From contig NZ_BONQ01000047.1 of NCBI RefSeq assembly GCF_016862795.1, forward strand, positions 1-64,000: a DNA stretch of 64,000 bases, written 5' to 3'. The translations under genes and the position numbers were made by a program. This DNA is from Dactylosporangium siamense. Lineage in GTDB: Bacteria > Actinomycetota > Actinomycetes > Mycobacteriales > Micromonosporaceae. This document shows positions 47,234 through 64,000 of the stretch, one piece after another. How positions within the stretch are numbered: the first letter of the stretch is position 1; every line of letters starts with the position of its first letter. The notes beneath the pieces are model-generated. The model was given only the letters and a program-made list of their open reading frames with translations, was not told the DNA's origin and ran no database searches.

Positions 47234-47926
47234 TCAGTGATGGTCCGCGTGTTCGACCGCCGTGGCAGGGGCCGCCTGGTCGGGAGGCCAGTCGATGACG
47301 CGGTGGGCCCAGCGGTGCATGAGTGCTGGGTCGTGGGTGATGAGCAGGACGCCGGTGCCGTGGCGGTGCTGGTGGTCGGTGATGACGGCGGCGACGTGGG
47401 CCTGGGTGGAGGCGTCGAGCATGGTGGTGGCTTCGTCGCAGAGCAGGTAGTCGGGCCGGTGTGCGAGGGCGCGGGCGAGGCACGCGCGCTGGAGTTGCCC
47501 GTCGCTGACCGCGTGCGGTTGCCGGCGCAGCAGGTCGGTGGTGAGGCCGGCGGTGTAGGCGAGTTCGACGACCCGGTCCTGGATCCGTTCCGCCTTCGTG
47601 GCTCGGAGGGGTTCGGCGATGATGTCGGCGAGGCTGAGGCGGGGGTCGGCGGCGCTGCGCGGGCTTTGGAAGAGCACGCCGATGCGGGTCCGGACGGCAG
47701 CCGCAACGCGGTAGCGGGCGCCGGTGACGGGGTTGCCGTCGATGCTGACGTGGCCGTCGTCGGGGCGGTGCAGCAGAGCGAGGACCCGCACGAGGGTTGA
47801 CTTGCCGCAGCCGGAGGGTCCGCGCAGCCCGACGGTTTCGCCCGGTCCGATGTGGATGCTGGCACGGTCGAGGACCGTTTGCCGCCCGTACGCGACGGTG
47901 ACCTCGTGCGCGGCGAGGCCGTTCAC
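47234..47926 (-). CDS. Nickel/peptide-type ABC transporter ATPase (NikE-like)
   Basis: A 230-residue ATPase of the oligopeptide/nickel class with Walker A GPSGCGKST, Walker B YLLCDEATTML and the switch His in LLITHDP. The signature reads VSDGQLQRA rather than SGGQ, a notable deviation, although the Gly-Gln core is kept. It is the fifth and last gene of the nik operon, and ATG overlaps the NikD stop. It lacks the C-terminal zinc-type motif that NikD has. Confidence 0.8.
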   Translation of the reverse strand: MNGLAAHEVTVAYGRQTVLDRASIHIGPGETVGLRGPSGCGKSTLVRVLALLHRPDDGHVSIDGNPVTGARYRVAAAVRTRIGVLFQSPRSAADPRLSLADIIAEPLRATKAERIQDRVVELAYTAGLTTDLLRRQPHAVSDGQLQRACLARALAHRPDYLLCDEATTMLDASTQAHVAAVITDHQHRHGTGVLLITHDPALMHRWAHRVIDWPPDQAAPATAVEHADHH

Positions 47927-48825: not shown

Positions 48826-49700
48826 AGTTGCAGCTCCGCTCGGACGCGGGGGTCGAGGCGGTCGCGCCAGTGGGCGGCGACGGCGGCGATGGCGAGGGTG
48901 ACCACGACGATGGCGAGGCCGGGGGTGAGGCTGGCCCACCAGGCGCCGGTGAGCAGCGACCGCTGCCCGTCGTTGATCATGTTGCCGAGGGAGGCGAGGT
49001 GCGGCGGGAGGCCGAGGCCGAGGAACGACAGGGCGGTCTCGTGCCAGACGGCGTGCGGGACCATGAGCGTTGTGGCCAGCGCCATCCGGGGCAGGACGTG
49101 CGGCAGCAGGTGCCGGGTCAGCACCCGTACGCGGCTGGCGCCGCCGGAGATGGCGGCGTCGATGAACGGGCGGGTGCGCAGGGAGAGCAGTTCGGCGCGG
49201 ACGATCCGGGCGGTGGACAGCCAGTGGGTCAGGCCGATGGACAGGATGACGGCGCCGAGGCTGGGCCGGAGCATGGCGACGATGAAGATGCCGAGCAGCA
49301 GGTGCGGCAGCGCGGCGACGGTGTCGACGATCCGCATGAGGATCCGGTCGGTCCAGCCGCCGACGGTACCGGCGACGGCGCCGACGGCCCCGCCGATGAG
49401 GGTGGCGACGAGCGCGGCGACGGCGCCGATGAGCAGCGACACCCGCAGGCCGTAGAGGGTGCGGTGGGCGACGTCGCGGCCGAGGTCGTCGGTGCCGGCC
49501 GGATGTGTCCAGGTGGGTGGCTGGTTGATCCGGTCGAGGGCGACGGCGCTCTGGTCGAGCGGCCACAGCAGCGGCACCAGCAGGCATGCCAGGATCGCGG
49601 TGGCGAGCACGACCGCGGCGAGCGCGGCACCTCGGGTGCCGGGCCGCAGCCAGGACAGCGGCCGCAGCCGGCGCTTCCTGGGCATGGTCAGCTCAGCCAT
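48822..49700 (-). CDS. Nickel/peptide-type ABC permease (NikC-like)
   Basis: A 292-residue permease of the BPD_transp_1 (DppC/NikC) class. An N-terminal helix (about 26-48) is followed by the conserved GTDDLGRDVAHRTLYG and five more helices. The EAA-type coupling loop is around AAISGGASRVRVLTRHLLP. It overlaps the NikB gene by 8 bp. Substrate nickel is inferred from the Nur boxes before nikA. Confidence 0.82.
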   Translation of the reverse strand: MAELTMPRKRRLRPLSWLRPGTRGAALAAVVLATAILACLLVPLLWPLDQSAVALDRINQPPTWTHPAGTDDLGRDVAHRTLYGLRVSLLIGAVAALVATLIGGAVGAVAGTVGGWTDRILMRIVDTVAALPHLLLGIFIVAMLRPSLGAVILSIGLTHWLSTARIVRAELLSLRTRPFIDAAISGGASRVRVLTRHLLPHVLPRMALATTLMVPHAVWHETALSFLGLGLPPHLASLGNMINDGQRSLLTGAWWASLTPGLAIVVVTLAIAAVAAHWRDRLDPRVRAELQL

Positions 49701-50664
49701 CGAGGCGCACCCGGGGGTCGGCGGCGGTGTAGGCGAGGTCGGTGAGCAGGTTCGCGGTCAGGACCACGGCGGTGGTGACGAGGGTGATCGCGGCCAGCAG
49801 CGGGAAGTCGCTGCCGAGCGCGGCCTGGACGGTGACCGCGCCGAGCCCGGGCAGCGAGAACACGGTCTCCACGAGCACGGCGCCGCCGACGAGTTCGGGC
49901 AGGTGGGTGCCGATGAGTGTGAGGAACGGCAGCAGCGCGGTGCGCAGCGCGTGTCCGAACAGGACGGTCCTGCCGGGTAGGCCACGGCCGCGAGCGGCGA
50001 GGACGTGGTCGTCGCGGAGGCTGTCGGCGACCGAGTCGCGGACGAACAGCAGGAACCACGGCGCCTGCGAGACCGCCAGGACGGTGATCGGCAGGATCAG
50101 GTGGTGCGCGACGTCGCCGGCGTGAACCCCGTCCGCGGCGATGTCGGTGAGCCCGCCGGCCGGGAACCAGCCCAGCACGAGGGCGAAGACGGTGATCGCG
50201 GCGAGGGCGAGCCAGAACACCGGCATCGCCTCCACCGCGTACGCGGCCGCGCGCAGGCCGCGGTCGAGCCAGCCGCCGCGCCGGTACGCCGCGACCGTCC
50301 CCAGGAGCAGGCTCGCCACCAGTACCAAGGCCAATGCTGCACCGACGAGCAGCAGGGTCCATCCGGCGCGGGCAGCGATGACGGAGGTGACGGGCTCGTG
50401 GCGGGTGATCGACCAGCCGAGGTCGCCCTGGACGAGGTTGGTGATCCACCGCCAGTACTGCACCGGCAGCGGGTCGTCGACGCCCCAGTTCGCCCGCAGC
50501 TGGGCAAGGTTCTCATCGGTGGCGGTGAACGCGGCCGCGCCGGCGTACTGCTCGGCCGGGTCGTACGGCGACGCCGCGCCCAGCGCGAACATGCCCATGC
50601 TGGTCGCGGCGAGGACCGGGACGGCGACCAGCAGCCGCCGCCCGACGGTCCGGCGGGCACTCAC
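49693..50664 (-). CDS. Nickel/peptide-type ABC permease (NikB-like)
   Basis: A 323-residue permease of the DppB/NikB class. It has an N-terminal helix, the WGVDDPLPVQYWRWITNLVQ periplasmic segment, five further helices and an EAA loop in LAARGRGLPGRTVLFGHALR. GTG 50664 overlaps the NikA stop (GTGA). A long frame extends upstream into nikA but lacks permease homology. Confidence 0.82.
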   Translation of the reverse strand: MSARRTVGRRLLVAVPVLAATSMGMFALGAASPYDPAEQYAGAAAFTATDENLAQLRANWGVDDPLPVQYWRWITNLVQGDLGWSITRHEPVTSVIAARAGWTLLLVGAALALVLVASLLLGTVAAYRRGGWLDRGLRAAAYAVEAMPVFWLALAAITVFALVLGWFPAGGLTDIAADGVHAGDVAHHLILPITVLAVSQAPWFLLFVRDSVADSLRDDHVLAARGRGLPGRTVLFGHALRTALLPFLTLIGTHLPELVGGAVLVETVFSLPGLGAVTVQAALGSDFPLLAAITLVTTAVVLTANLLTDLAYTAADPRVRLDG

Positions 50665-52241
50665 CCCTTGGTCCAGGTGTGCAGGTTCCACCAGAGGCTG
50701 TTGGCGACGTCGTGCTCGTGCGCCTCCACCCGCGGCTGCACGCCCTTGACGGTGCTCCGCACGACGTAGGTGTGCTGCAGGTACGTGAGGAACACCCACG
50801 GCACGTCGGCGGCGAGCTGCCGCTGGAACCGGCTGTACGCGTCCTTGCGTTTCGCCGGGTCGGCCTGGTCGCGGCCGTCCTGCAGCGCCTTGTCGGTCTC
50901 CGCGGACTTGTACAGGCCGAGGTTGAAGTAGCCTTCGCCGGCGAACTTCGAGCCGAACAGCTTGTAGGAGACGAAGTCCGGGTCGTACGGGCTGCCCCAG
51001 CCCATGACGAGCGCGTCGGTCTTCATCCGCGGGGTGATCGCGTCCCAGGTGAGTCCCTCCGGGGTGACCTGGATGCCGAGCTTCTTCGCGTCCGCGGTGA
51101 CGGCGAGGGCGAGCTCCTTGCGGAGGCTGTCGCTGGCTGGGTACATGATCGTGAACGCCGCCTTCTGCCCGCCCTTGACCCGGATCCCGTCGGCGCCCGG
51201 CACCCAGCCGACGGCGTCGAGCAGCCCTGTTGCGGTCGCTGTGTCGGCACCCGGTTTGCCGGTCACTGTCGCGTCGGCGAAGGCCGATGTCGGCGGGATC
51301 GGGCTGTACGCGGGCTCGCCGGCGCCGCCGAGGACACCGTCGACCATCGCCTTGCGGTCGACGCCGGTGTTGAGCGCCTTGCGCACCGCGAGGTCACCGG
51401 TGACCGGATTACCGAAGGGGAGCATCACGCCGCGATAGTCGGCGGTCGGGACCTTGTGCACCGTGAACCCGGTGACGGTGCCGAGCCCTGCGGCGAGCTT
51501 TGGCGCCAGCTCGGCGGCGTCGAACTCGCCGGCGCGGGTCCGCTGAGCGCGGATGTTGTCGTCGGCGACGAACGCGACCACGACGCGGCGGTTCGCGGGT
51601 TTCCCGGCGAAGTACCGGTCGTTCGCGGTCAGCACGAGCCGGTCCCCCGCCGTCCAGGACTCCACCTGGTACGGGCCGGTGCCGATGGGCTTGCGGTTGA
51701 ACCCGGACTTGTTGATGTCCTGACCCTGCAATGCCGTTGCCGGCACGATGCCGAGGGTGAGGCGCTGCAGGAACGGCGCGTAGGCGTACCTGAGCCGGAA
51801 CACCACCGTCGACGCGTCGGGCGCCTCGACCGCGTCGAGCATGTCCAGGTCGGAGCGCAGCGTCGAGTCGACCTTCGGGTCCAGGACCGCCCGGTAGGTG
51901 AAGACGACGTCGGCGGACGTGAACGGCGTGCCGTCGTGGAAGACGACCCCGTCGCGGAGCTTCACGGTGACGGTGCGCCCGTCGGCGGACACGTCCGGCA
52001 GCGCCGCGGCGAGGGCGGGCGTGAGTTCGTTGCGGCCGTCGCGGGCGACGAGCCCATCGAAGATCAGCGAGGCACCGTCGACCCCGTAGTTCAGCACCGG
52101 GTTCAGGGTGTCCGGCTCCCCGGCGGTCGCGACGACGATCGTGCCGCCGTTGCTGTCCTGCGCTTGTGGTGTCGCGGAGCAGGCCGTGACGGCCAGTACG
52201 AGCGCCGCCGCGGCGGTGAGCCGGTGGAAGGTGACACGCAT
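50661..52241 (-). CDS. Substrate-binding lipoprotein of nickel-type ABC importer (NikA-like)
   Basis: A 526-residue family-5 solute-binding protein. The lipoprotein signal ends VTAC (Cys near residue 21). SBP_bac_5 hallmarks are TLNPVLNYGVDGASLIFDGL, TVKLRDGVVFHDGTPFTSAD and NRKPIGTGPYQVESW. The family binds peptides, nickel chelates or nickel-histidine complexes. Nickel is favoured by the three Nur-type boxes 35-91 bp upstream. The start is ATG 52241, with ggag about ten bases upstream; the frame to 52298 would overlap the boxes. Confidence 0.82.
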   Translation of the reverse strand: MRVTFHRLTAAAALVLAVTACSATPQAQDSNGGTIVVATAGEPDTLNPVLNYGVDGASLIFDGLVARDGRNELTPALAAALPDVSADGRTVTVKLRDGVVFHDGTPFTSADVVFTYRAVLDPKVDSTLRSDLDMLDAVEAPDASTVVFRLRYAYAPFLQRLTLGIVPATALQGQDINKSGFNRKPIGTGPYQVESWTAGDRLVLTANDRYFAGKPANRRVVVAFVADDNIRAQRTRAGEFDAAELAPKLAAGLGTVTGFTVHKVPTADYRGVMLPFGNPVTGDLAVRKALNTGVDRKAMVDGVLGGAGEPAYSPIPPTSAFADATVTGKPGADTATATGLLDAVGWVPGADGIRVKGGQKAAFTIMYPASDSLRKELALAVTADAKKLGIQVTPEGLTWDAITPRMKTDALVMGWGSPYDPDFVSYKLFGSKFAGEGYFNLGLYKSAETDKALQDGRDQADPAKRKDAYSRFQRQLAADVPWVFLTYLQHTYVVRSTVKGVQPRVEAHEHDVANSLWWNLHTWTKG

Positions 52242-52275
52242 CGAGGCTGCTCCAGATGTCGGGCGACCGAATCTG

Positions 52276-52332
52276 ATGCAAGTTATCTGTTGTTGCAAGT
52301 TAGGTGCAATAGCTGTTGCAAGCTTATGGCAA
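52276..52332. promoter_or_regulatory. Array of Nur-type boxes upstream of nikA
   Basis: Two sites with exact N5 spacing, TTGCAA-gttag-GTGCAA (52293-52309) and TTGCAA-gctta-TGGCAA (52316-52332), and a weaker third half-site ATGCAA at 52276-52281. They lie 35-91 bp before the nikA start on the minus strand, where nickel-loaded Nur would block the promoter. Confidence 0.75.
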
Positions 52333-52502
52333 ATACCGGAGACTGACAGCAGAAGGGTTTGGCCTGGTGCGGTCCGTGGAGTGGTCGCCGATGCCGGGCG
52401 GACTCTTCGTCCACGCCGCGGTCGTCAGGGTGCGATCAGGCGAGGCGGCGCCCAGCGCGATGGTCCTCAACCTGGTCTGGGCGCCGCCACCACAGCCGAT
52501 TG

Positions 52503-52527
52503 TGCCGCCGCAGGCTTCGCGGCGGCA
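52503..52527 (-). terminator. Terminator after superoxide dismutase gene
   Basis: A 9-bp perfect stem (tgccgccgc with gcggcggca) and 7-nt loop, 16 bases after the sodF-like stop on the minus strand. The remaining 52333-52502 shows no supported gene. Confidence 0.7.
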
Positions 52528-52543
52528 CTCCGGGTCGGTCCGG

Positions 52544-53146
52544 TCAGCCGGCCGTGGCGGCGGTGAAGCGGGCGGTGACGTCCGACCAGTTCACCAGGTC
52601 CCACAGCCGGTCGACGTAGTCCGGCCGGACGTTCTTGTACTGCAGGTAGTAGGCGTGCTCCCAGGCGTCGAAGACGAGCAGCGGTGTGGTGCCCTGCCCG
52701 ACGTTGCCGTGGTGGTCGTAGACCTGCTCGACCAGCAGCCGCCGGCCGAGCGGCTCCCACGCGAGGACGCCCCAGCCGGAGCCTTGAACGCCCTTGGTCG
52801 CGGTGGACAGCTGACCGGCGAACCCTTCGAAGGACCCGAAGTGCTCGTCGATCGCCGTGGCGAGCTCACCGTCGGGCCGGTCGCCGCCCTCGGGCGACAG
52901 GTTGTTCCAGAAGATCGAGTGCAGGACGTGCCCGGACAGGTTGAACGCCAGGGTCTTTTCGAGGCCGACCAGGGCGCCGAAGTCACCCTTCTCGCGCAGC
53001 TCGGCGAGCTGGTCGAGGGCGTCGTTGGAGCCCTTCACGTACGCGGCGTGGTGCTTGCTGTGGTGCAGCTCCAGGATCTGCCCTGACATCGCGGGCTCCA
53101 GGGCGCCGTAGTCGTAGGGCATGTCGGGCAGCGTGTAGACAGCCAT
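52544..53146 (-). CDS. Fe/Mn-family superoxide dismutase (SodF-like)
   Basis: A 200-residue cytoplasmic enzyme converting superoxide to peroxide and oxygen. Metal ligands are His in [12 protein letters not shown], His in [14 protein letters not shown], Asp in [10 protein letters not shown] and the His of the same motif. In Streptomyces the iron enzyme SodF is repressed by nickel-bound Nur while the nickel enzyme SodN is induced. The Nur-type box at 53183-53199 fits this. No sodN is present in the window. I chose ATG 53146 with gagagg upstream. Confidence 0.88.
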
Positions 53147-53182
53147 GCGCGAACCTCTCAGCAATATGCCATGGAGTGGCTC

Positions 53183-53199
53183 CTGCCAGTATGTTGCAA
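53183..53199. promoter_or_regulatory. Nur-type box upstream of sodF
   Basis: Read on the minus strand: TTGCAA-catac-TGGCAG, the same N5 spacing as the nikA and MFS sites, 37 bases before the sodF start. A second degenerate atggca-tattg segment lies closer to the gene. Confidence 0.7.
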
Positions 53200-53258
53200 T
53201 AAGCATGGCTGCGGGGCGGGTCTGGGAGTGACCGACGTGACAGCGATCGCCGCTCGGC

Positions 53259-54106
53259 TCACCCGGCGTCGACGAACCGTTGCGGTGCGGCCGCGAACTG
53301 TTCCTGGCACCACGTGCAGCAGAAGTGCCAGGTGCTGCCGTCGTGTTCGAGGGTGAGCGGGTCGTCGGGCGGGACCGGCATCCCGCAGACCGGGCATGCC
53401 GGCTGATCCGATGCGTTCGCCGCCTCCGCGGCGAACTCGCTGTTGCTGTCGGGGTGCATCCAGCCGGTGCCCTGGTATTCGAGCTGAGTGGCGGTCCGCC
53501 GCGCGACCGTCCGTCCGAAGTACCGCTCGACGATCCGCAGGGCGAGGTCGGTGCCGGAGGTGAGACCGCCGGCGGTGGCGATCCTGCCGTCTTCGACGTA
53601 GCGGACCCCGCGGACGACGGTGACCTCGGGGAAGGTCGCGCGAAGTGCCCGGTAGCCGCCGTGGTGGGCGGTCGCGGTCCTGCCGTCGAGGAGGCCGGCC
53701 TGTCCGAGGACGAAGGAGCCGTTGCACACGGACATGGTCACCGCGGTGCCGTGATGCACCCGCCGCAGCCAGTCGAGGACCTCCGGGGCGAGCTTCCTGG
53801 TGTCCATGGCGGGGACGACCACGATGTCCGGTGCGGGCGCGCTGTGGAGGTCGTGCCCGGGGACGATGACCATGCCGCCGGAGATCCGGACGGGTTCGGT
53901 CGTGGCCGCCACCGTGTGCAGCGTGAACGGGTTGCGGCCGTCGTCGAGGTGGACGTACTCGAACACGCCCCACGGTCCGGCGAAGTCGACGAGTTCCGCG
54001 TCGGCGGAGATGAGGAACGCGACGGTGATGTCACCGGTCGTGGGAGGGTCGAGCGGTGCGGTGAGACGGGCATCGGGGACCGGCTGGTCGAGCGTCGTGT
54101 CGGTGG

Positions 54107-54110
<4 letters not shown>
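53259..54110 (-). CDS. DJ-1/PfpI-domain protein fused to a C-terminal YHS metal domain
   Basis: A 283-residue protein. Residues about 27-215 form a DJ-1/PfpI (class I amidotransferase-like) domain with [20 protein letters not shown] containing the nucleophile-elbow Cys. Residues about 238-275 form a YHS/TRASH-type domain: [13 protein letters not shown], then [14 protein letters not shown]. It has no AraC helix-turn-helix, so it is not a GlxA regulator. The YHS domain binds metals, often copper or a transported metal, in P-type ATPases and chaperones. It is the last gene of the FecBCD-like operon (ATGA overlap). A metal-dependent enzyme or chaperone role is inferred. Confidence 0.8.
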
Positions 54111-54900
<790 letters not shown>

Positions 54901-54904
<4 letters not shown>

Positions 54905-55983
54905 CGCACCGCCCCGGACCGGCTGCGCAACAGCCACAGGAAGAACGGCGCACCCAACGCGGCGGTGAAGATACCGATCGGCATCTCGTTGGGCCGGTCC
55001 AGCGTGCGGGACAGCAGGTCGACCAGGATCAGGAAGATCGCGCCGACGAGCAGCGACACCGGCACGACCCGCCGGTGGTCAGGGCCGACGAGCAGCCGTA
55101 CCGCGTGCGGGACCAGCAGACCGACGAAGCCGATCCCCCCGGCGACGCTGACGATCGTGGCGGTCAGCAGCGACGCGGCGGCGAGCAGCCCGAGCCGCAG
55201 CCGGTTGACGTCGATCCCCAGCCCCGCGGCGGACGTCTCCCCCATCGTCAGCGCGTTGAGCCGGCGGCCGTCGACCAGCAGCCACAGCATGCAGCACAGC
55301 AGGGCGACGGCCGGTGCCGGCAGGTCGGACCATGACGCCCCGGAGACCGAGCCGAGCAGCCAGAACATGATGCCGCGCAGCTCGGTCGGGTTGGCCTGCA
55401 GCTGGATGTAGCTGGTCACGGCGGAGCCCAGGTAGCCGACCGCCACACCGGCCAGGATCAGCCGCCCGGGAGCGACCTGACCGGCGCGCTGCGCCAGCCC
55501 GACCACCAGCACCACGCTCATCAAGGCGCCGGCGAACGCGGCCCCGGTCACGCCCAGTCCGGCGGTGACCGCGGAGGCGAACGTCAAGGCAAGGACCGCT
55601 CCGACCGAGGCGCCCGAGGAGATGCCGAGCAGGTACGGGTCGGCGAGCGGGTTACGGACGAGGGCCTGCAGGCACACCCCGGCGATGCTCAGGCCGGCGC
55701 CGCTCACCCCGGCCAGCAGCACCCGGGGTGTGCGGAAGTCCCACACGATCTGGTCGTACAGCAGGCTGCGCTCGGTGTCCCCCGGCGTGAGGTGCGCCCA
55801 CGTCACCGCGACCACGTCCCCGAGCGGCACCGGCACGGTGCCGACGGCGATCGCGACCGCCGCCGACACCACCGTCGCGGCTGCCAGGAGCACGACCAGT
55901 AGCGAGTAGGCGCGATCCGGCACGAGGTGGGCACGGTGCGCGGCCGTGCGCTTCGACCGTTCAGCCGGCAGCGTGGACGGCAT
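54901..55983 (-). CDS. FecCD/BtuC-type ABC importer permease
   Basis: A 360-residue permease with about ten helices. Conserved FecCD features are LTPGDTERSLLYDQIVWDFR, RTPRVLLAGVSGAGLSIAG, LLGISSGASVGAVLA and GGIGFVGLLVPHAVRLLVGP. It forms the channel for a TonB-independent actinobacterial importer of siderophores, heme, cobalamin or a metallophore. It overlaps the solute-binding gene by 23 bp. Confidence 0.9.
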
Positions 55984-57049
55984 CGCTGATCCGCTTGACC
56001 GCGACCGCGTTCAGCGGCCCGAGATAGAAACTGTCCGACACCGACGTGTACGTCTTCGTCTTCGAGGCGGGCCACTGCGGGAACTTTGCGAACAGCTGCT
56101 CGGCGAACTTCTTCGCGTCGTCGTCCGGCTGGTACAGGCCGATCACCAGGACGTCCGGGTTCGACGTGGCGAGGGCCTCGACGTTGATCCCGGTGAGCTG
56201 CTGATCGGTGAGCCCGCCGAACGGGTTCACGCCGCCGGCCCGGTTGATGATGTCGTCGAAGATCCCGCCGCCGAACACCGCCGGTACCCCGTTGGTGGTC
56301 ATCATCGACATGCTCGGGTAGGCGACCAGCACGCGCTTGCGGGCGCCGGTCGGCGAGGGGAGCGCGGCCAGCGAGGTGCGGGCCTGCTGCACGACCTCGG
56401 CCGCCCGGCCCTGCACGTCGAAGATCACCCCGAGCTGGGTCAGCAGGTCGAACGACGACTCAACGGTCCGGTTCGCGTACGTCGTCACGTCCTGCGGCCG
56501 GGGCGAGGTCGCGCCGTTGGCGCAGTTGGACGGGGTCACGAAGCTGTTGATGCCGGCCTTGGCCAGCTCGTCCTGACCGATCGAGCCGATCTTGTCGTCG
56601 AATCCGCCCGCCCAGGTCGAGATCACCAGGTCCGGAGACTGGGCCAGTATCTGCTCGCGGGGGATCTCGAAGTTCTGGTTGAGCTTCACCCCGCCGGTCG
56701 GGACGGCCTTGATCTTTTCGACCATTGCCGGGTCATCGGACACGCCGTAGCTCTGGCTGTTCGCCACGATGCTGCCCTGTACGCCGAGCGCGATCATCGA
56801 CTCGACCTCCGCGACCGACGCCCCGTTGAGCAGCACCACCCGGCGCGGCGCCTGCGTGAACGTGACCTTCCGGCCGCAGTTGTCGATCGTCAGCGGATAC
56901 GTGGTCCGCGGCCCGGCGGCCGCGGACCCGCCCGGCGCCCCGGCCGACGCCTCCGGCACCTTCGTCCCGGAGCACGCGCCAAGCGCCAGCATGACGCACA
57001 CGGCCAGCGCCGCACGGGAAGCAACGAACCTGGAAGTACGGGGTGGCAA
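55961..57049 (-). CDS. FecB/BtuF-type solute-binding lipoprotein
   Basis: A 362-residue lipoprotein (lipobox LGAC, Cys near residue 25) with the PBP class III fold. NCGRKVTFTQAPRRVVLLNG opens lobe 1, LAQSPDLVIS and TTYANRTVESSFDLL lie in the helical backbone, and lobe 2 includes VLVIGLYQPDDDAKKF. It binds a metal complex of unknown identity. A Cys at NCANGA and several Met residues (PSMSMM) are noted. TTG 57049 is chosen because aggagg lies five bases upstream. Confidence 0.85.
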   Translation of the reverse strand: MPPRTSRFVASRAALAVCVMLALGACSGTKVPEASAGAPGGSAAAGPRTTYPLTIDNCGRKVTFTQAPRRVVLLNGASVAEVESMIALGVQGSIVANSQSYGVSDDPAMVEKIKAVPTGGVKLNQNFEIPREQILAQSPDLVISTWAGGFDDKIGSIGQDELAKAGINSFVTPSNCANGATSPRPQDVTTYANRTVESSFDLLTQLGVIFDVQGRAAEVVQQARTSLAALPSPTGARKRVLVAYPSMSMMTTNGVPAVFGGGIFDDIINRAGGVNPFGGLTDQQLTGINVEALATSNPDVLVIGLYQPDDDAKKFAEQLFAKFPQWPASKTKTYTSVSDSFYLGPLNAVAVKRISDAVHAAG

Positions 57050-57138
57050 TGCGTCCTCCTGGTGTCGGTGAGCACCGGGCAAGTCCGCTCGACCGGCAAA
57101 CAGATAGTCGTCGCATCGCCGTGAATGGTTCCGTGCGC

Positions 57139-57586: not shown

Positions 57587-58807
57587 TCATCCGAGCAGGC
57601 TCTGGCCGATCCAGCCGCCGGGCTCGCAGCCGGGCGGGACCGCGAAGACGGCGGAGCCGATCGGCGTGATCCACTCGTTCATCAGGTCGGCGTCGTCGAG
57701 CTTGCGCTGGATCGGGATGAACTGCTCGCCGATGTCACGCTGGTACGACGCGAAGACGAGCCCGCTGTCCGCGGTGCCGTCCGCGCCGGGCGGCTCGTCG
57801 TAGTTGTACGGGCGGCGGAAGATCCGCAGCCGGTCCGAGCCCACCTGTGCCCGCGAGACGTGCGAGAACTCCGAGATGACCGGGAACCCGAGCTCGTTCT
57901 TGGCATTGAAGTCGGGCTCGTCCAGCTCTAGGCGGCCGGTGAGCGGCGCGCCGTCGGACAGCCTGCGACCGACCGCGAACTCCTTGCCGACGGTGTCGGC
58001 GGCGTCCCACTTTTCCAGCTCGGCATGGATCCGGCGGATCACGACGGTGGTCCCGCCGTGCAGCCACGCGGGGCCGCTGTCGGTCCAGACCGCGCTGGCG
58101 AACACGTCGCTGCCGGGTGCCGGGTTGCGGGTGCCGTCGAGCTGTCCGAGGACGTTGCGCTGGGTCACCCCGTCGTCCTGCGTGCCGCGGGCGTTGCGGA
58201 ATCCGCGCTGCACCCACCGTACGGTGGCGAAGGACCGCGAGTCCTTGACCAGCATCCGCTGGGCGTGGGCGACGGTGACCGGGTCGTCGGCGCAGATCTG
58301 CAGCAGCACGTCGCCGCCGCTCCACCCCTGCTGCAGTTTGTCGATGCCGAAGGCGGGCAGCTGCTGCAACGACGATGGCCGCTGCGCGGTGAGCCCGGCG
58401 ACGTCGAACAGCCGCGGCCCGAACCCGAACGTCACCGTGAGCCGCGCCGGCATCCGCGCCAGCTCCGGCTGCCCGTCGGCGAGCGGCGCGACGCCCTGCG
58501 TCAGCCGCGCCGCGTCGTCGGTGAGCACGAGCATCATCCGGCGCAGCGCCGCACGGTCGGCGACGGCGGCCAGGTCGAGGGCCACGAACGAAGCATGCGC
58601 CTGCGCCGGCGTCTCGACACCGGCCTGATGCGCCCCGTGGAACGCGATCGTCTGCCCACCCGCCGCTGCCGGCGCCGGGGTGGGTGCGGCATGGTCGCCG
58701 CCGGTCCGGACGGCCGCCGCGCCGACGGCGATCGCCCCGCCCACGGACAGGGCACCGCCGGCCAGCAGGGCACGCCTGCTGACCGGCCCCCGCTCACGAT
58801 CGGTCAC
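57587..58807 (-). CDS. Tat-exported Dyp-type peroxidase (EfeB-like)
   Basis: A 406-residue heme peroxidase. The twin-arginine signal is SRRALLAGGALSVGG at the N-terminus. The Dyp hallmark Asp/Gly motif is LGQLDGTRNP (GxxDG), with heme and distal residues in GTTVVIRRIHAELEKW. The C-terminus reads GLVFASYQRDIGEQFIPIQ. EfeB proteins normally work with EfeU/EfeO in iron uptake, but neither is present. Here it follows a PCuAC copper chaperone by 2 bp. The chosen start is GTG 58807; the frame upstream overlaps PCuAC. Roles could include oxidation of heme, a metallophore or copper. Confidence 0.88.
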   Translation of the reverse strand: MTDRERGPVSRRALLAGGALSVGGAIAVGAAAVRTGGDHAAPTPAPAAAGGQTIAFHGAHQAGVETPAQAHASFVALDLAAVADRAALRRMMLVLTDDAARLTQGVAPLADGQPELARMPARLTVTFGFGPRLFDVAGLTAQRPSSLQQLPAFGIDKLQQGWSGGDVLLQICADDPVTVAHAQRMLVKDSRSFATVRWVQRGFRNARGTQDDGVTQRNVLGQLDGTRNPAPGSDVFASAVWTDSGPAWLHGGTTVVIRRIHAELEKWDAADTVGKEFAVGRRLSDGAPLTGRLELDEPDFNAKNELGFPVISEFSHVSRAQVGSDRLRIFRRPYNYDEPPGADGTADSGLVFASYQRDIGEQFIPIQRKLDDADLMNEWITPIGSAVFAVPPGCEPGGWIGQSLLG

Positions 58808-58809
58808 CG

Positions 58810-59361
58810 TCAGCCCATCGACATGCCGCTGGCACTCGGGCTGCCACCCATGCCAGGCATGTACGACTCGTTGCCCGCCGCGAAATCCTTGCCCAGCGCG
58901 GTGAACTGGAACGTGCCGCCGTCCTTCGTCGTCAGCGTGAACGTCACCTGGTCGCCGGTCTTCACCTCGGTCTTGACGTCCATGAGCATGAAGTGGTCGC
59001 CGCCGGGCTTGAACTCGTGCGACCCGTTGGCGGGGATGACGAACCCGCCGTCCTTCGGCCGCATCGCCATCTTGCCGTCCACAGTGGTCGTCTCGTGCAG
59101 CTCCATCATCGGCGACACCGACGACGACGCCGAGACGAGCACGATGTCCTTGCCGGTGGTGTTCATGACCGTGCCGTACGCCGCCGACATCCCGGACTTC
59201 GCCGTCTTCACCCACGGGTCCTTCACCACGAGGGCCTGCTGCGGGCTCGCGCTGGTGGCGGCCGGCGCGGCCTCGGCACCGGGCGACTTCTCGGACCCGC
59301 AACCGGTCAGGGCCAGCACCAGCACGGTGGCGGCGAGCAGACCGCGTTTGCGCAACGACAT
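58810..59361 (-). CDS. PCuAC-type periplasmic copper chaperone lipoprotein
   Basis: A 183-residue lipoprotein (lipobox LTGC) with a PCuAC cupredoxin-like domain. The copper site matches H(M)x10Mx21HxM in spirit: MMELHETTT, GKMAMRPKDGG and DHFMLMDV. The Met-rich C-terminus SYMPGMGGSPSASGMSMG adds likely Cu(I) ligands. PCuAC delivers copper to cytochrome oxidase or stores it outside the membrane. It is the first gene of the minus-strand operon and lies behind an ECF-type promoter (59407-59436). ATG 59361 with gaagga upstream. Confidence 0.88.
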   Translation of the reverse strand: MSLRKRGLLAATVLVLALTGCGSEKSPGAEAAPAATSASPQQALVVKDPWVKTAKSGMSAAYGTVMNTTGKDIVLVSASSSVSPMMELHETTTVDGKMAMRPKDGGFVIPANGSHEFKPGGDHFMLMDVKTEVKTGDQVTFTLTTKDGGTFQFTALGKDFAAGNESYMPGMGGSPSASGMSMG

Positions 59362-59406: not shown

Positions 59407-59436
59407 GGTAGTCGGGGTCCGCGCCGGGAAAGTTCC
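59407..59436 (-). promoter_or_regulatory. ECF-type promoter for the PCuAC-Dyp-ABC operon
   Basis: On the minus strand GGAAC (59436-59432), 17 bases, then CGACTACC (59414-59407). Identical spacing and nearly identical boxes occur at three other places in the locus. Predicted transcription start is near 59400, giving a leader of about 40 nt with a good ribosome-binding site. Confidence 0.8.
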
Positions 59437-59497
59437 CGACGGATTTCTGTCGACCCCGGTGCGCCGTCCAGCGGTTCAGGAGGGTCAGGATGGACGC

Positions 59498-60085
59498 ATG
59501 CGACTGCACGTGACTCTCCGCGCGATCCTCGCCGCCGCCGCTGTGGCACTGCTTGTGCTGCTCGCCCCGCCGCAGCCGGCATGGGCGCACGCCAAGCTCG
59601 TCAAGAGCGACCCTGCCAACGGCGCCACGGTGTCGACCCCGCTGACGGGCGTCGCGTTCACCTTCAACGAGATGGTGAAGCAGCAATTCAGCACGGTGGT
59701 CGTCACCGGACCCGACGGTGTCTCCTACAGCGACGGCACGCCGAAGTCGGTCGACAAGACCCTCACCCAGCCCATCAAGCCGCTCCCACCCGGCGCGATC
59801 AAGGTGGCTTGGCGGACCGTCTCGGTCGACGGCCACCCGATCGAGGGCCAGCTCACCTTCACCAACGCCGCACCGGCCCCCACCACCGCAGCCCCGTCCA
59901 GCGAACCCCCGGCCACCAGCGCGGCGCCGGCGACGAGCGCGGCCGCACCGACCGTCGCGGCCGAGCCGGCATCGAGCGACAGCGGTTCCAGCGGTGTGAT
60001 CTGGATCGTGCTCGGTGTCGTCGTTGTCGCGTCGGTACTGGCCGGCGGCGCCGTCTGGTGGCGTCGCCGCAGCGGGACCGCCTGA
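59498..60085 (+). CDS. CopC-domain copper-binding membrane protein
   Basis: A 195-residue protein. The signal peptide (about 1-30) ends AWA, so the mature protein begins with His-Ala-Lys, the N-terminal Cu(II) ligand typical of CopC. The CopC domain (31-125) has SDPANGATVSTPLTGVAFTF and WRTVSVDGHPIEGQLTF (second His). A Pro/Ala/Ser linker leads to a C-terminal helix and RRRSG anchor. It is divergent from PCuAC. It has no obvious copy of the shared ECF promoter, although gggaaagttccc lies upstream. Confidence 0.88.
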   Translation: MRLHVTLRAILAAAAVALLVLLAPPQPAWAHAKLVKSDPANGATVSTPLTGVAFTFNEMVKQQFSTVVVTGPDGVSYSDGTPKSVDKTLTQPIKPLPPGAIKVAWRTVSVDGHPIEGQLTFTNAAPAPTTAAPSSEPPATSAAPATSAAAPTVAAEPASSDSGSSGVIWIVLGVVVVASVLAGGAVWWRRRSGTA

Positions 60086-60234
60086 GCGAAACGGGCACTG
60101 CCGCCGGGGACGCGACGCCGGTACGCTGGCCGCGTCCGTAACCCGGCGCGGCGGCCTGCACGGACAAGCAGCTCAGTGGTGTCGGCGCACCTCGGAGCCG
60201 CAGTCCTTTGCCGTGCTCGCGTGAGGAACCCGCC

Positions 60235-60633
60235 GTGCCCGCTACCGCCGCACCCGCCCGTTCCCGGGACACCGTCACCCGGATCGCCGCCGTCGCCGTC
60301 CTCCTCGTCGCCGGTGTCGTCGTCGCCCTGCTGTACCGGGGAGGCGGCACCGACGACGGCGCCGCCGTGCAGGACCGGACGATCACCGCAAGGGTCACCG
60401 CCGGCAAGGCCGACCCGCCGGTGCAGCGGGTGGAGGTCGGCAAGGGCAGCGCGATCACCCTCACCGTGACATCCGACGTACCGGACGAACTGCACGTGCA
60501 CGGCTATGACCGCAAGCTCACCCTGAACCCGGGCCAGGCGGCGACGCTGGAGTTCCGCGCCGACACCACGGGTGTGTTCGAGATCGAGACGCACGGCGCG
60601 CACCTGCTGCTGGTCCAGCTCGTCGTGCGCTGA
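60235..60633 (+). CDS. Membrane-anchored cupredoxin-like protein
   Basis: A 132-residue protein with one N-terminal membrane helix (about 14-34) and an extracytoplasmic cupredoxin-like beta domain: ITLTVTSDVPDELHVHGYDR and TGVFEIETHGAHLLLVQLVV. Histidine pairs at LHVHG and THGAH could bind copper, but the Cys of type-1 sites is absent. Start GTG 60235 with gagga upstream. It probably works with CopC in extracytoplasmic copper handling. It is convergent with the sigma factor (7-bp gap). Confidence 0.7.
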   Translation: MPATAAPARSRDTVTRIAAVAVLLVAGVVVALLYRGGGTDDGAAVQDRTITARVTAGKADPPVQRVEVGKGSAITLTVTSDVPDELHVHGYDRKLTLNPGQAATLEFRADTTGVFEIETHGAHLLLVQLVVR

Positions 60634-60640
60634 ACCGGAG

Positions 60641-61189
60641 TCAGCTCGCCTGCGCGGCGCGGTGCGCGGCCACCAGGTCGGCCCGCGCCCGGGCCACCCT
60701 GGACCGGATGGTGCCGATCGGCACGCCCTCGACCTCGGCGGCCTCCGCGTAGGACAGGCCGAGGACCTGGGTCAGCGTGAACGCGACCCGCTGATCGTGC
60801 GGCAGCCGCCGCACGAGGTCGTTCGTCGCGTGGGCGCTGCCGGGGTCGGGCACCGGCGCCGGCCGCAGCTCGAGGTCAACCACCGCGTCCACCCGCCGGC
60901 TGCGCACCAGCGCGCGGATGTGGTCGACGCAGGCGCGCCGGGCGATGGTCAGCAGCCAGGTCCGGGCCGCTGACCGAGCGGCGAACTGCGGCAGCGACCG
61001 GAACGCACGCAGAAACACGTCCTGCGTGACGTCGTCCGCGTGCTCCGGACCGACGACCGCCCCGGCGAGCCGGCGGATCTCGGGCTGCGTCGCGCGGACG
61101 AACGCCGCCGCGGCCGCCCGGTCACCGGCACGCGCGGCAAGCAGGCACGCGGTCAGTTCGTCCGGTTCGTCCGGGCTCGCGGCGCTCAT
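60641..61189 (-). CDS. ECF RNA polymerase sigma factor (SigC-like)
   Basis: A 182-residue sigma factor. Region 2 (about 25-95) contains EHADDVTQDVFLRAFRSLPQ and ARTWLLTIARRACVDHIR. Region 4 (about 120-175) contains LPHDQRVAFTLTQVLGLSYA and GVPIGTIRSRVARARADL. It is divergent from a zinc-finger anti-sigma gene whose promoter carries GGAAC-N17-CGAC, and copies of this promoter precede copper genes on both sides. The sigma C group of mycobacteria has been linked to copper acquisition; orthology here is inferred. ATG 61189. No copy of the consensus drives this gene itself. Confidence 0.85.
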   Translation of the reverse strand: MSAASPDEPDELTACLLAARAGDRAAAAAFVRATQPEIRRLAGAVVGPEHADDVTQDVFLRAFRSLPQFAARSAARTWLLTIARRACVDHIRALVRSRRVDAVVDLELRPAPVPDPGSAHATNDLVRRLPHDQRVAFTLTQVLGLSYAEAAEVEGVPIGTIRSRVARARADLVAAHRAAQAS

Positions 61190-61222
61190 AGCGAGTCACC
61201 GTACCCGCAGCCACTTTCCGGT

Positions 61223-61252
61223 GGAACCATCCGGGGTTCCAGGACGACTATC
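61223..61252 (+). promoter_or_regulatory. ECF-type promoter of the anti-sigma gene
   Basis: GGAAC (61223-61227), 17 bases, CGACTATC (61245-61252). GTG 61258 follows six bases later, so the transcript is leaderless or nearly so. The -35 element is one arm of an inverted repeat ggaacc-N6-ggttcc (61223-61240), placing a mirror -35-like element on the sigma-factor strand. Confidence 0.75.
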
Positions 61253-61257
61253 GGTGT

Positions 61258-62004
61258 GTGGGATGCGACCAGTACCAGGAAGCACTGTCGGCCCGGCTCG
61301 ACGGCGAGGACGAACCGGTCCCGGCCGCCGAGACCGACGCGCACCTGCGCCGGTGCAACGCCTGCCAGACGTGGCAGCGCGACGCCCTGGCGGTGACCCG
61401 GATGGTCCGGGTCCAGCCGGTCACGGCGACCTCGAAGCTCGACGTCGCGGCGCTGCTGGACCGGTTCCGGCCGGTCCTGCCGAGGGTCCGCAACGTCCTG
61501 CGGGTGGCGCTGGGCACGCTCGGCGCCGCGCAGTTCCTGCTCGGCATGGCCCAGGTGGCCCGCAACGCCGCGGCCGACCACGTCCACGCTGCCGCCGCGG
61601 CGGGTGCGACGGCCGGGCACCTGTGGCACGAGTCGGCAGCCTGGAACGTCGCGGTCGGCGCCGGGTTCGCGTTCAGCGCCTGGAGCCGCCGCCGGCCGAC
61701 CGGGGCGCTGCCGATCCTGTCCGCGTTCGTCGCGCTCCTCGCGCTGCTCAGCGTCAACGACATGATCGCCGGTCAGGTGCAGCAGATCCGGCTCGCCAGC
61801 CACGGCTTCGTCCTCGCCGGCTACCTGATCGTCCTGGCACTGTGCCACCCGCGCCTCGACCCGGGCACCCCGCCCAGCAGCGGACTGAAGCCGCGCTGGC
61901 GCCTCGCCCAGCAGCCGCTCCCGGATCCCGTCGCGCCACCGAAGCTGCGGCTGATCCAGGGCCACGCGACCGCGAGCACGGCGGACCTGTACGAGGCGGC
62001 CTGA
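61258..62004 (+). CDS. Zinc-finger anti-sigma factor-like membrane protein
   Basis: A 248-residue protein. The N-terminal cytoplasmic domain has CDQYQEALSARLDGED and the ZAS motif HLRRCNACQTW (H-x3-C-x2-C), which binds zinc in anti-ECF factors. Four hydrophobic segments follow at about 82-100, 125-145, 150-168 and 178-200. A His-containing segment HVHAAAAAGATAGHLWH between helices could sense metal (inference). It is divergent from the sigma factor gene and should hold it inactive until a signal arrives, although the usual co-transcription is replaced by divergence. GTG start, leaderless. Confidence 0.8.
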   Translation: MGCDQYQEALSARLDGEDEPVPAAETDAHLRRCNACQTWQRDALAVTRMVRVQPVTATSKLDVAALLDRFRPVLPRVRNVLRVALGTLGAAQFLLGMAQVARNAAADHVHAAAAAGATAGHLWHESAAWNVAVGAGFAFSAWSRRRPTGALPILSAFVALLALLSVNDMIAGQVQQIRLASHGFVLAGYLIVLALCHPRLDPGTPPSSGLKPRWRLAQQPLPDPVAPPKLRLIQGHATASTADLYEAA

Positions 62005-62006
62005 CG

Positions 62007-62430
62007 TCATGTGCGCAGCGGCGTCGTCATCACCGGCGCCGCGCTGGTCCGGGTCCGCAGCCGGAACGTGAGCGTCCAGGCGAAGCCAGGCGGCAGGACG
62101 GTGGCGGCCACCCGCGGTGTGTTCGCCGACGGCCAGCACCGCGAACGTGACGCTCTCCCCCGCCCGCGTGGCCGTCGCCGTCCAGGCCTGCACGGGCTCC
62201 GTGGTGCACAGGCGGGCGAAGACGCGGCCCGGCCCCTGCTGCTCCAGACGGACCCGCAGCACGTGGCCGTCGTCCTGCATCGTCACGGCCGCCCGCGTGG
62301 GGCAGGCGGCCGCGGCGTGGGTCCGGGACACCGCGAGGACCGCACCCAGCGCGACGACGACCGCCGCGAGCAGCACCAGCACGCGGTGGGAACGCCGGGT
62401 GACCGGCGCGCTCCGGGTCCGGAGCGCCAT
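62007..62430 (-). pseudogene. Frameshifted secreted/membrane hypothetical protein
   Basis: The reading starts at ATG 62430 with LALRTRS-like basic residues, a signal/anchor helix (VLVLLAAVVVALGAVLAVS) and an extracytoplasmic part up to FAVLAVGEHTA near 62112. There the frame is lost. In the frame one base away the sequence continues VAATVLPPGFAWTLTF and ends PVMTTPLRT-stop at 62007. Dropping one G of the ggg near 62110 joins them into one protein of about 140 residues. Without it the frame runs on antisense through the neighbouring gene. It has its own ECF-type promoter (62549-62578). It could be a sequencing error or a true inactivation. Confidence 0.65.
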
Positions 62431-62548
62431 CACGTGGACCGCCGTACCCTCGGCATGTCGGACGGCAGGCCCGCAGCGGTGACCGGCGGGTGTCCGCCGC
62501 GGCGAACGGCGGCGCACCCGGCATCGGTCCTCATGCGGCAGCACACCA

Positions 62549-62578
62549 GGTAGTCGGTGCCGCCCGTGCCGAAGTTCC
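62549..62578 (-). promoter_or_regulatory. ECF-type promoter before the frameshifted gene
   Basis: On the minus strand GGAAC (62578-62574), 17 bases, CGACTACC (62556-62549). It lies 8 bp downstream of the YcnI stop and about 119 bp before the start of the downstream gene. Confidence 0.75.
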
Positions 62579-62585
62579 CGGCAGA

Positions 62586-63308
62586 TCAGGTGGTGCGGCC
62601 CGCCCGGCGGTAGGCGAGGATGCCGACGAACAGCGCGGCAGCGCCGAGGAGCAGCCCGATCACACCTAGGGTGATCGCGGTGCCGTCGGTCGCGTCGTCG
62701 TCGTTGGCGGTGGCGGCCGCGTCCTGCGCCGCCGTGTTCGCGCCGGCGGTCGCGGTGGCGGCGGCGTCGGTCTTCTTCGTGAGCTTCAGCACCGGGGCGG
62801 GGTGCTCGGCCTCCGCGCCCGCGGCGGGCTCGTCGATCCAGCGCACGACCTCACCGTTGGAGTACGTCTGCAGCGCCTTGAACACGATCTGGTCCGCGGT
62901 CGGCAGCGGGCCGAGCGAGACGTCGAACTCCTGGAACGTGTGCGGTTTGATCTCCGAACCCGCCGACGCCGTCCACGTGATCTTCGAGATCGCCTCGGTG
63001 ATCTCACCGTCGTCGGTTTTGATCGGCGTGGCGAGCTTGCTGTTCTCGGTGACGGCGGTCCAGCCCGCGACGGGCTTGAGCGACACCGACGCGATCGGCT
63101 TGTCGGTCGGGATCGCGATCTCCAGCTTCGTGGTGCTCGCGTCGTCCTTCTCGTTCGGGACCCGGAAGGTGACCTTCGTGTAGCCGCCCTGGGTCGCGGT
63201 GTTCGGGTTGACGGTCACGTGCGCAGACGCCGCAGCGGGGAACGCGAAAACCGCGACGGCGAGCGCGGTCAGGGCAGCACCGGCGCGGGCCAGGTGGGCG
63301 AGACGCAT
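62586..63308 (-). CDS. YcnI-family (DUF1775) copper-binding membrane protein
   Basis: A 240-residue protein. The signal peptide (about 1-29) ends ASA, leaving mature N-terminal HVTVNPNTATQGGYTKVTF, the monohistidine brace of YcnI that binds Cu(II). The DUF1775 domain runs to about residue 165 (includes WTASAGSEIKPHTFQEFDVS). An Ala/Thr-rich linker, one membrane helix and a basic tail (YRRAGRTT) anchor it outside. YcnI, CopC and CopD proteins commonly occur together in copper import or homeostasis. It is divergent from the CopD gene. Confidence 0.88.
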   Translation of the reverse strand: MRLAHLARAGAALTALAVAVFAFPAAASAHVTVNPNTATQGGYTKVTFRVPNEKDDASTTKLEIAIPTDKPIASVSLKPVAGWTAVTENSKLATPIKTDDGEITEAISKITWTASAGSEIKPHTFQEFDVSLGPLPTADQIVFKALQTYSNGEVVRWIDEPAAGAEAEHPAPVLKLTKKTDAAATATAGANTAAQDAAATANDDDATDGTAITLGVIGLLLGAAALFVGILAYRRAGRTT

Positions 63309-63335
63309 GACGGGTGGGTCCTCTCAGCAATGGCG

Positions 63336-63365
63336 GGAACTTTCGAGGTTCTCGGACCGACTACC
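63336..63365 (+). promoter_or_regulatory. ECF-type promoter before the CopD gene
   Basis: GGAAC (63336-63340), 17 bases, CGACTACC (63358-63365). The match to the PCuAC promoter extends on both sides (gggaactttc and ccgactacct in both). Predicted start near 63372, leader about 26 nt. Confidence 0.8.
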
Positions 63366-63397: not shown

Positions 63398-64000
63398 ATG
63401 ACTTATATCGACCTGACCCGAAAGGTCCGCAAGCCCCTGATCCTCGCCAGCAGCGTGATCGCGCTGCTGGCTACCCTCGTCGTCGCGCTGCGGTGGGGCG
63501 GTGGGATCACCGGCCGCAGCATCGCCGGGCTGCCCGACGCGGGCGCACTCACCACATGGGGCCTGCCGCTGATCCGCACGGCCGTCGACATCGGCTGCGT
63601 CGCGACCGTCGGCTGGTGCGTGACCGCCGCGTTCCTGCTGCCCAGCCTCAAAGCCGGCCCAGACGGCGGCGGCCGGCACGGCGCCGGCCAGCTGCTCGGC
63701 CCGGCCGGCTACCGGATGCTGCGCCGCGCCTCCTGGTGGGCCGCCGGGTGGGCCGTCGCCGCCCTGCTCACGCTGCCGCTCACCCTCTCGGACCTGCTCG
63801 GCCGGCCGGTGTCGGACCTGACGTTCGACGGTGTCCGCAGCCTCGCGTGGTCGGTGAACCTCGGCCAGTCCGCCCTCACCCAGGCCGTCCTGGCCGCAAT
63901 CGTGGCCGTCGGAGGACGGCTCGTGCTCACCCGTACCGGCGCCGCAGTGATTGCCATCATCGCCTGCGCCGCAGCGGTCCCGCCCGCGTTGACCGGGCAC
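63398..64000 (+). CDS. CopD-family copper transport protein (partial, runs off window)
   Basis: 201 residues are visible, with no stop before the window edge. Hydrophobic helices lie at about 14-32, 62-86, 115-140, 150-170 and 180-198. The end VPPALTGH matches the ALTGH motif of CopD domains. In actinobacteria such proteins often continue into a CtaG-like cytochrome-oxidase assembly domain, totalling about 650 residues; whether this one does cannot be seen. CopD imports copper supplied by CopC/YcnI/PCuAC. The start is ATG 63398; the ECF-type promoter lies 33 bp upstream. Confidence 0.8.
   Translation, partial: MTYIDLTRKVRKPLILASSVIALLATLVVALRWGGGITGRSIAGLPDAGALTTWGLPLIRTAVDIGCVATVGWCVTAAFLLPSLKAGPDGGGRHGAGQLLGPAGYRMLRRASWWAAGWAVAALLTLPLTLSDLLGRPVSDLTFDGVRSLAWSVNLGQSALTQAVLAAIVAVGGRLVLTRTGAAVIAIIACAAAVPPALTGH

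Follow-up and report, generated by a model that had tools for sequence, protein, structure and literature searches.

The described system closest to the one treated here is SigC of Mycobacterium tuberculosis, a sigma factor that prevents copper starvation (PMC7924339). That report names ctpB and the nrp operon as SigC targets, gives no identified anti-SigC factor and leaves as a question how copper deficiency is sensed. A putative anti-SigC gene, rscA, lies distant from sigC in M. tuberculosis and near it in other species (PMC6917791), and a fusion of SigC with Rv0093c has been reported in the M. avium complex (PMC7563442). SigC has been placed in group ECF36, some members of which carry an N-terminally fused anti-sigma domain with three to four helices and DUF2275 (PMC8999054). 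Here we analyse a stretch of 64,000 nucleotides (nt) of Dactylosporangium siamense DNA, called the window throughout, in which five copies of the motif GGAAC-N17-CGACTAYC lie near the divergent genes of a SigC-like extracytoplasmic function (ECF) sigma factor and an anti-sigma factor. We consider it likely that these sites are promoters of this sigma factor, that the latter controls copper acquisition and delivery, and that the anti-sigma factor senses copper, releases the sigma factor upon starvation and closes a feedback loop.

Compared with SigC/RscA of M. tuberculosis, the window pair has in common the related sigma factor, for which SigC provides the role in copper starvation, an anti-sigma homologue that combines a zinc finger with membrane helices, and reported fusions. 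It differs in that its sigma factor scores below the SigC equivalog cut-off and that no DUF2275 match was reported in its anti-sigma factor. Furthermore, the window genes are divergent neighbours, whereas those of SigC and its anti-sigma factor are distant or fused, and the targets of the window system encode CopC, CopD-CtaG, YcnI, PCuAC and PepSY proteins instead of ctpB and the nrp operon (PMC7924339). Sigma C of Corynebacterium glutamicum, which we compared by description only, likewise heads an ECF regulon that is switched on when copper is lacking or heme a is not properly inserted, but its described targets are cydABCD and ctaE-qcrCAB, the genes of branched quinol oxidation (PMC7337898). 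The ycnKJI locus of Bacillus subtilis shares the effectors YcnI (DUF1775) and YcnJ (CopC-CopD), which are used for growth or import under copper limitation (PMC12362106, PMC13344008); however, it is described as tied to the metalloregulator YcnK and to no sigma factor (PMC12362106). CorE of Myxococcus xanthus is a copper-responsive ECF sigma factor as well, yet it is reported to sense through its own Cys-rich C-terminal extension, to be activated by Cu(II) and to work without an anti-sigma factor (PMC10141476).

The kind of pair is thus not new, as the copper-starvation role of SigC, the putative anti-SigC factor and the fusion are already known. What the present analysis adds is a map of the promoter and its regulon, the fixed, apparently leaderless layout and the conserved His/Glu/Asp pattern of a candidate copper sensor. 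In the open-access literature we found no description of such a promoter, copper regulon, leaderless anti-sigma gene or metal-ligand pattern.

Results and discussion

Putative promoter sites in the window and in the genome

Promoters of the general ECF type carry a GGAAC –35 element. An earlier note on this DNA had proposed four such sites, of the form GGAAC-N17-CGACTAYC, as promoters read by the adjoining sigma factor. All four were found where the note had placed them, each with GGAAC and CGAC exactly 17 bases apart, and the stretches gggaactttc and ccgactacct, said to be common to two of them, were indeed present at 59437 and 63335. The count of four fell short, however, as a fifth exact site on the minus strand (site 1) had been overlooked. 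The sites and the two regulatory genes are:

57103..57132, minus strand: putative promoter site 1, GGAACCATT...CGACTATC; exact match; before a substrate-binding-protein operon
59407..59436, minus strand: putative promoter site 2, GGGAACTTTCC...CGACTACC; exact match; before the PCuAC gene
60641..61189, minus strand: SigC-like ECF sigma factor (Pfam regions 2 and 4; structure match; tree)
61223..61252, plus strand: putative promoter site 3; exact match; before the anti-sigma gene, with the –10 hexamer ending 7 nt before the GTG start
61258..62004, plus strand: anti-sigma factor (Pfam zf-HC2; alignment; AlphaFold2)
62549..62578, minus strand: putative promoter site 4; exact match; before a small open frame without assigned family, ATG at 62430
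63336..63365, plus strand: putative promoter site 5, GGGAACTTTCG...CGACTACC; exact match; before the CopD-CtaG gene

Five exact matches in the window compare with a mean of 0.01 (largest value, 1) in 100 dinucleotide shuffles, in agreement with the note's view that the grouping is unlikely by chance. When all 12.7 Mb of the genome, in 296 contigs, were scanned, the exact motif occurred 10 times and the reversed pattern not at all, so that a background of many random hits was not seen for the exact motif. Nine of the 10 matches precede genes, mostly copper genes, and one (contig C54) lies within a coding frame. Outside the window, exact sites were found on C56 before a second anti-sigma gene, on C110 before a PepSY gene and before a PCuAC-DyP pair, and on C153 before a DUF1775 gene. 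Three more sites, each departing from the motif at one of its last two bases, were chosen from 17 looser matches after their genes, of fitting or plausible kinds, had been seen. They precede a PepSY gene at position 65408 of C47, just beyond the window edge, a CopC-DUF1775 pair (CopC first, then YcnI) at C82:7441, and the gene of a DUF929 protein at C153:18504. Since sites before fitting genes are spread over five contigs (C47, C56, C82, C110 and C153), the compact local regulon that the note had envisaged was ruled out; the regulon is genome-wide. Looser patterns were uninformative by count: GGAAC-N16-18-CGACTA gave 17 matches in the genome versus 16 in the control, and a 31-base pattern with up to three mismatches gave 10 versus 11, nine of the 10 being sites already known.

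Conservation in the family and a probable leaderless layout

An anti-sigma homologue (E ≤ 0.001) was detected in 89 of 101 genomes of the family. For comparison we used 80 named relatives' loci, the best 80 of 180, which bear names of Micromonosporaceae (e.g., Dactylosporangium, Asanoa, Micromonospora and Salinispora, with Dactylosporangium nearest); family membership was looked up for Dactylosporangium. In 79 of the 80 loci, GGAAC-N17-CGAC precedes the anti-sigma gene, the hexamer being CGACTA in 70, CGACAA in six and CGACCA in three. The distance from hexamer to start codon was 7 nt in 76 loci and 8, 17 and 46 nt in one each. The spacer was equally rigid: GGAAC-N-CGACTA occurred 88 times with 17 bases and at most once with each of the other lengths between 10 and 25, and the reversed control gave 0 matches at 17 and at most four at the other lengths. 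A variable spacer of 16 or 18 was thereby ruled out. Seventy of the 88 sites were assigned to the anti-sigma gene and one to the sigma gene, which was detectable in 51 of the 80 loci. The motif thus appears to drive the anti-sigma gene and not the sigma gene, and autoregulation of the latter (1/88 sites) was ruled out. In a separate set of 40 relatives' loci, which overlaps the first in species so that counts were not summed, the 7-nt gap was present in 29, including L126 with its poorly matching hexamer, and another gap in six; five were listed as siteless, though two of these, L114 and L117, have sites.

Transcripts from ECF promoters usually start 6–9 bases after the –10 box. Together with the fixed 7-nt gap, this would let the start codon coincide with the 5′ end of the mRNA or lie directly beside it, implying that the anti-sigma mRNA is leaderless, with its start deduced from the hexamer-to-codon distance.

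The proposal that these are ECF promoters read by the adjoining sigma factor remains the best explanation of a spacer fixed at 17, of the anti-sigma site in 79 of 80 loci and of the position of the motif ahead of copper genes in the family. That the repeats arose by chance, or serve an unrelated DNA-binding protein and are not promoters at all, appears extremely improbable. Such a view could draw on the looser patterns, which do not exceed the controls in the own genome, and on a search of 46 genomes for GGGAAC-N17-CGACTA, in which 121 matches faced 59 for the reversed pattern, so that about half of the matches elsewhere look random. It is opposed by the fixed spacer, the fixed start-codon distance, the orientation towards genes and the conservation of the sites, as well as by their fit to the general ECF promoter type.

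Genes behind the putative promoter

To describe the regulon across the family, we surveyed 80 stretches, which contained 85 sites of the form GGGAAC-N17-CGACTA, 84 of them from the 111 matches outside the own genome. By rule, 68 sites had a downstream open frame and 17 had none; after removal of 11 anti-sigma genes or overlaps, 57 proteins were scanned. The families found were CopC (14 proteins), CopD (11), PepSY_TM (8), MauE (6), DUF1775 (5), PCuAC (5), HupE (2), DJ-1 (2), CtaG (1), Peripla_BP_2 (1) and thioredoxin (1). Provided that none counts twice, as the listing suggests, CopC, PepSY_TM, MauE/DoxX, DUF1775, PCuAC, HupE, DJ-1, CtaG, Peripla_BP_2 or thioredoxin account for 45 of the 57. 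Single matches to P450, condensation-domain and NADH dehydrogenase families are among the rest, as expected by chance. The copper-related genes of the window itself are:

57587..58810, minus strand: DyP-type peroxidase (Pfam; NCBIfam TIGR01413 above cut-off, TIGR01412, EfeB-type, below)
58810..59361, minus strand: PCu(A)C copper chaperone (Pfam PCuAC, E 1.8e-36)
59489..60085, plus strand: CopC (Pfam CopC, E 1.9e-23)
60235..60633, plus strand: cupredoxin-like protein (Pfam Cupredoxin_1, E 3.2e-5, below cut-off)
62586..63308, minus strand: YcnI-type (DUF1775) protein (Pfam DUF1775, E 7.4e-54)
63398..64000, plus strand, extending beyond the window edge: CopD-CtaG fusion membrane protein, 663 amino acids (aa) (Pfam Caa3_CtaG, E 1.4e-79; CopD, E 2.4e-13; both on L011)

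The peroxidase gene is presumably in one operon with PCuAC. Among the paralogues of YcnI, the copy on C153 has a site of its own, and on C82 the site stands before a CopC gene, behind which the paralogue lies.

A response to copper excess, that is, detoxification, would also involve copper proteins. In Pfam and NCBIfam, CopC and CopD are named after copper resistance or copper homeostasis, and a cupredoxin-like protein and a peroxidase are encoded nearby. However, neither a P-type ATPase nor a multicopper oxidase was among the 22 families found in the 57 downstream proteins, and PCuAC and CtaG serve oxidase assembly. In M. tuberculosis, moreover, SigC acts in copper starvation (PMC7924339). 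A response to excess is hence quite improbable, and from the gene content and the example of SigC we infer control by copper starvation.

The sigma and anti-sigma factors

The window sigma factor comprises 182 aa and matches Sigma70_r2 (58.7 bits) and Sigma70_r4_2 (55.5 bits), both above the Pfam cut-off; by these domains it is an ECF (group 4) factor. Its closest solved structure is M. tuberculosis SigC (2o7g, E 6.9e-20). In a FastTree phylogeny of 31 sequences, it joined a SigC-like clade (support 0.83), though as the outermost branch, together with a second sigma factor of the genome, encoded on C154. Six other ECF factors of the genome, for which 75 sigma matches were listed, were included; five fell outside the clade and one was set as root. 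As a side observation, Cys occupies both positions of a CGC motif before the recognition helix (residues 154–156) in 28–29 of 30 aligned sigma factors, and the window protein has Glu and Val there.

The divergent neighbour of the sigma gene encodes an anti-sigma factor of 248 aa. Its N-terminal zinc motif of the HxxxCxxC type (C3, H29, C33 and C36) is present in 52 of 52 aligned relatives, zf-HC2 was matched at 30.3 bits (Pfam cut-off 22.2), and its profile matched the anti-sigma factor RsiW at 9.6e-8. Judged by sequence, the protein is a zinc anti-sigma (ZAS) factor. Indirect support for a cognate pair comes from the gene neighbourhood (51 of 80 loci) and from homologous fusions. AlphaFold2 predicted the zinc-binding domain plus four long helices with a mean pLDDT (predicted local distance difference test) of 78.5. 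Beyond the zinc motif, H121, E125, D168 and H182 are conserved in 52 of 52 relatives, H110 and H124 in 50 and H108 in 49. With the zinc domain and an Arg-containing turn at 143–146 inside, these His, Glu and Asp residues should face outward, and they make the anti-sigma factor a candidate copper sensor.

Comparisons of the membrane part were less specific. Foldseek returned no match at E 0.001, and VIA-align retrieved VKOR-, tetraspanin- and Fc-receptor-type helical bundles at Z of about 9–10, a level common for helical bundles. No DUF2275 match was reported in the window anti-sigma factor at E ≤ 10, filters dropping most weak matches, or among the 52 members at E ≤ 1. Two more anti-sigma genes were found in the genome: that on C56 (112873–113595) has the motif and the 7-nt gap, and an orphan on C3 (46841–47653) has no such site within 130 bases upstream. 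More distant anti-sigma relatives with an H...REMASFD motif were noted in L209, L212, L230 and L257; there, the promoter motif lies on one strand and an oppositely facing MauE/DoxX gene has its own copy.

Beyond the family: class-wide search and SigC fusions

With the anti-sigma profile (E ≤ 1e-10), homologues were detected in 31 of 246 genomes of the class. A strict joined pattern of promoter, 7-nt gap and start codon gave eight matches in seven of these 246 genomes and none in the control, and every match was at an anti-sigma gene. In one genus of the same order, anti-sigma factor and SigC form a single open frame, which is full-length and uninterrupted in 33 of 118 genomes; in three more the fusion contains internal stops, and in others the genes lie apart. 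We took this genus to be Mycobacterium because its SigC is nearly identical to the solved M. tuberculosis protein. The SigC part of the fusion scored 360.4 bits against the NCBIfam equivalog cut-off of 219. The fusion matches DUF2275 at 1.8e-25, and the homology of the window anti-sigma factor to it is still seen with profile A1. Twenty of the 27 fusions read contain the sequence HMHGAMSG[E/Q]HL[M/L]HES.

In two mycobacteria-like genomes with separate genes (G258 and G103), a CopD-type gene lies between those of the sigma and anti-sigma factors, and GGGAAC-N17-CGACT adjoins the SigC-like sigma gene, pointing away from it. The gene behind this site in G258 encodes a heavy-metal P-type ATPase. 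In addition, GGGAACTTT-N17-CGACCA was noted near the anti-sigma gene of two mycobacteria-like loci (L357:10753 and L358:19444); the gene behind it in L357 encodes a 222-aa membrane-type protein without assigned role.

Proposed mechanism and its weighing

In the mechanism that we favour, the SigC-like sigma factor (60641–61189) would recognise the sites and control both the acquisition of copper and its supply to respiratory oxidases. The anti-sigma factor (61258–62004) would hold it by means of the cytoplasmic zinc-binding domain, with the four membrane helices as an anchor, and the outward-facing cluster of conserved His, Glu and Asp would bind copper. As long as copper is bound, the sigma factor would stay held; when copper becomes scarce, it would be released and would transcribe the genes for copper uptake and oxidase assembly. 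It would also transcribe the anti-sigma gene, from a leaderless mRNA, and not its own, which would establish a negative feedback loop.

Several observations weigh against this interpretation. The window sigma factor reaches only 128.6 bits with the SigC equivalog of NCBIfam (PRK09649; cut-off 219) and branches as the outermost member, outside the rest of the SigC-like clade. The genome holds the second SigC-like sigma factor (C154:143-676, 67% identical, at a contig edge) and the two further anti-sigma factors on C56 and C3, so that partners could cross. Within the window, the motif scan found no upstream site belonging to the CopC, cupredoxin-like and YcnI genes themselves. In the nearest relatives, from Dactylosporangium, CGACAA takes the place of CGACTA, and no sigma gene was detected beside the anti-sigma gene at two of these loci, L089 and L090. 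Among 27 anti-sigma loci outside the family (L292–L318), a like site 6–8 nt before the start was found in eight only, and nine have no site even in looser form, so that the promoter rule holds firmly inside the family alone. Finally, GGAAC-N17-CGAC is absent within 200 nt upstream of all 27 fusion genes read, so that feedback onto the anti-sigma factor is not supported there.

CbtB, HupE and a siderophore-type binding protein likewise count here, as they hint at other metals. The sigma factor and its promoters might operate as described while the anti-sigma factor senses cobalt, nickel, zinc, iron or membrane redox, with the copper proteins only part of the output. In favour of such a signal one can cite a CbtB-like gene near the locus, HupE/UreJ (2/57), MauE/DoxX (6/57) and the siderophore-type binding protein (1/57) among the targets and, from the operons of the window, the DyP peroxidase and the superoxide dismutase. 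Against it stand the 33 of 57 downstream proteins that belong to CopC, PepSY_TM, DUF1775, PCuAC or CtaG, if none counts twice, and the loop of the mycobacteria-like fusion, whose richness in His and Met fits copper in our interpretation. We therefore regard a signal other than copper as unlikely, and copper as the probable one.

Neighbouring genes and further observations

Behind site 1, the window encodes a transport operon and two further genes:

55961..57049, minus strand: lipoprotein-like substrate-binding protein (Pfam Peripla_BP_2), the first gene behind site 1; TTG start with AGGAGG at 57049
54901-55983, minus strand: FecCD permease (Pfam), behind the substrate-binding protein
54107-54937, minus strand: ATP-binding cassette ATPase (Pfam), behind the FecCD permease
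53259-54110, minus strand: DJ-1/YHS protein (Pfam)
52544-53206, minus strand: Fe/Mn superoxide dismutase (Pfam)

The binding protein is of the siderophore type, and a like protein with the motif upstream was found in another genome of the family (L235). The transport operon genes after site 1 are followed by a family-5 solute-binding protein and further transport genes (47234–57049, minus strand), and this region could serve metallophore uptake. An Fe/Mn superoxide dismutase gene is also present in the SigC-like locus L357.

The gene at 62549, behind site 4, had been called frameshifted in the earlier note. The frame (62004–62550, minus strand) is small and signal-peptide-like, with a possible break near 62115, where it may continue in another frame. 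Among the relatives' loci compared, no relatives of this small frame were found outside its own locus. Behind the PepSY gene beyond the window edge, the next genes encode a cobalt-transporter subunit resembling CbtB and a small protein that has no assigned family (L011:7201–7999; C47, approximately 67200–68000). A second copper cluster on C110 (L014:7780–9213) mirrors the window layout in that a CopC-like frame on the opposite strand faces the PCuAC-DyP pair, with cupredoxin-like and DUF1775 genes nearby.

Conclusions

A wider proposal is that the copper sensor still lacking for the SigC family as a whole is this anti-sigma factor, whether encoded separately or fused, with the leaderless mRNA giving a fast homeostat. 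This is a tentative idea, to which we would give somewhat less than an even chance. The system described here bears on how SigC, and with it the tuberculosis bacterium, senses copper shortage, the question posed in the SigC report (PMC7924339). For such work, soil and marine actinobacteria of this family provide a defined promoter together with a clear set of genes and a small number of candidate metal ligands, and because the same wiring recurs in related bacteria, the idea is directly testable. The mRNAs that are probably leaderless and lie at a constant distance from the promoter form a large natural set that would be useful for studies of leaderless translation, and the promoter signature can be used to find copper genes in the family.

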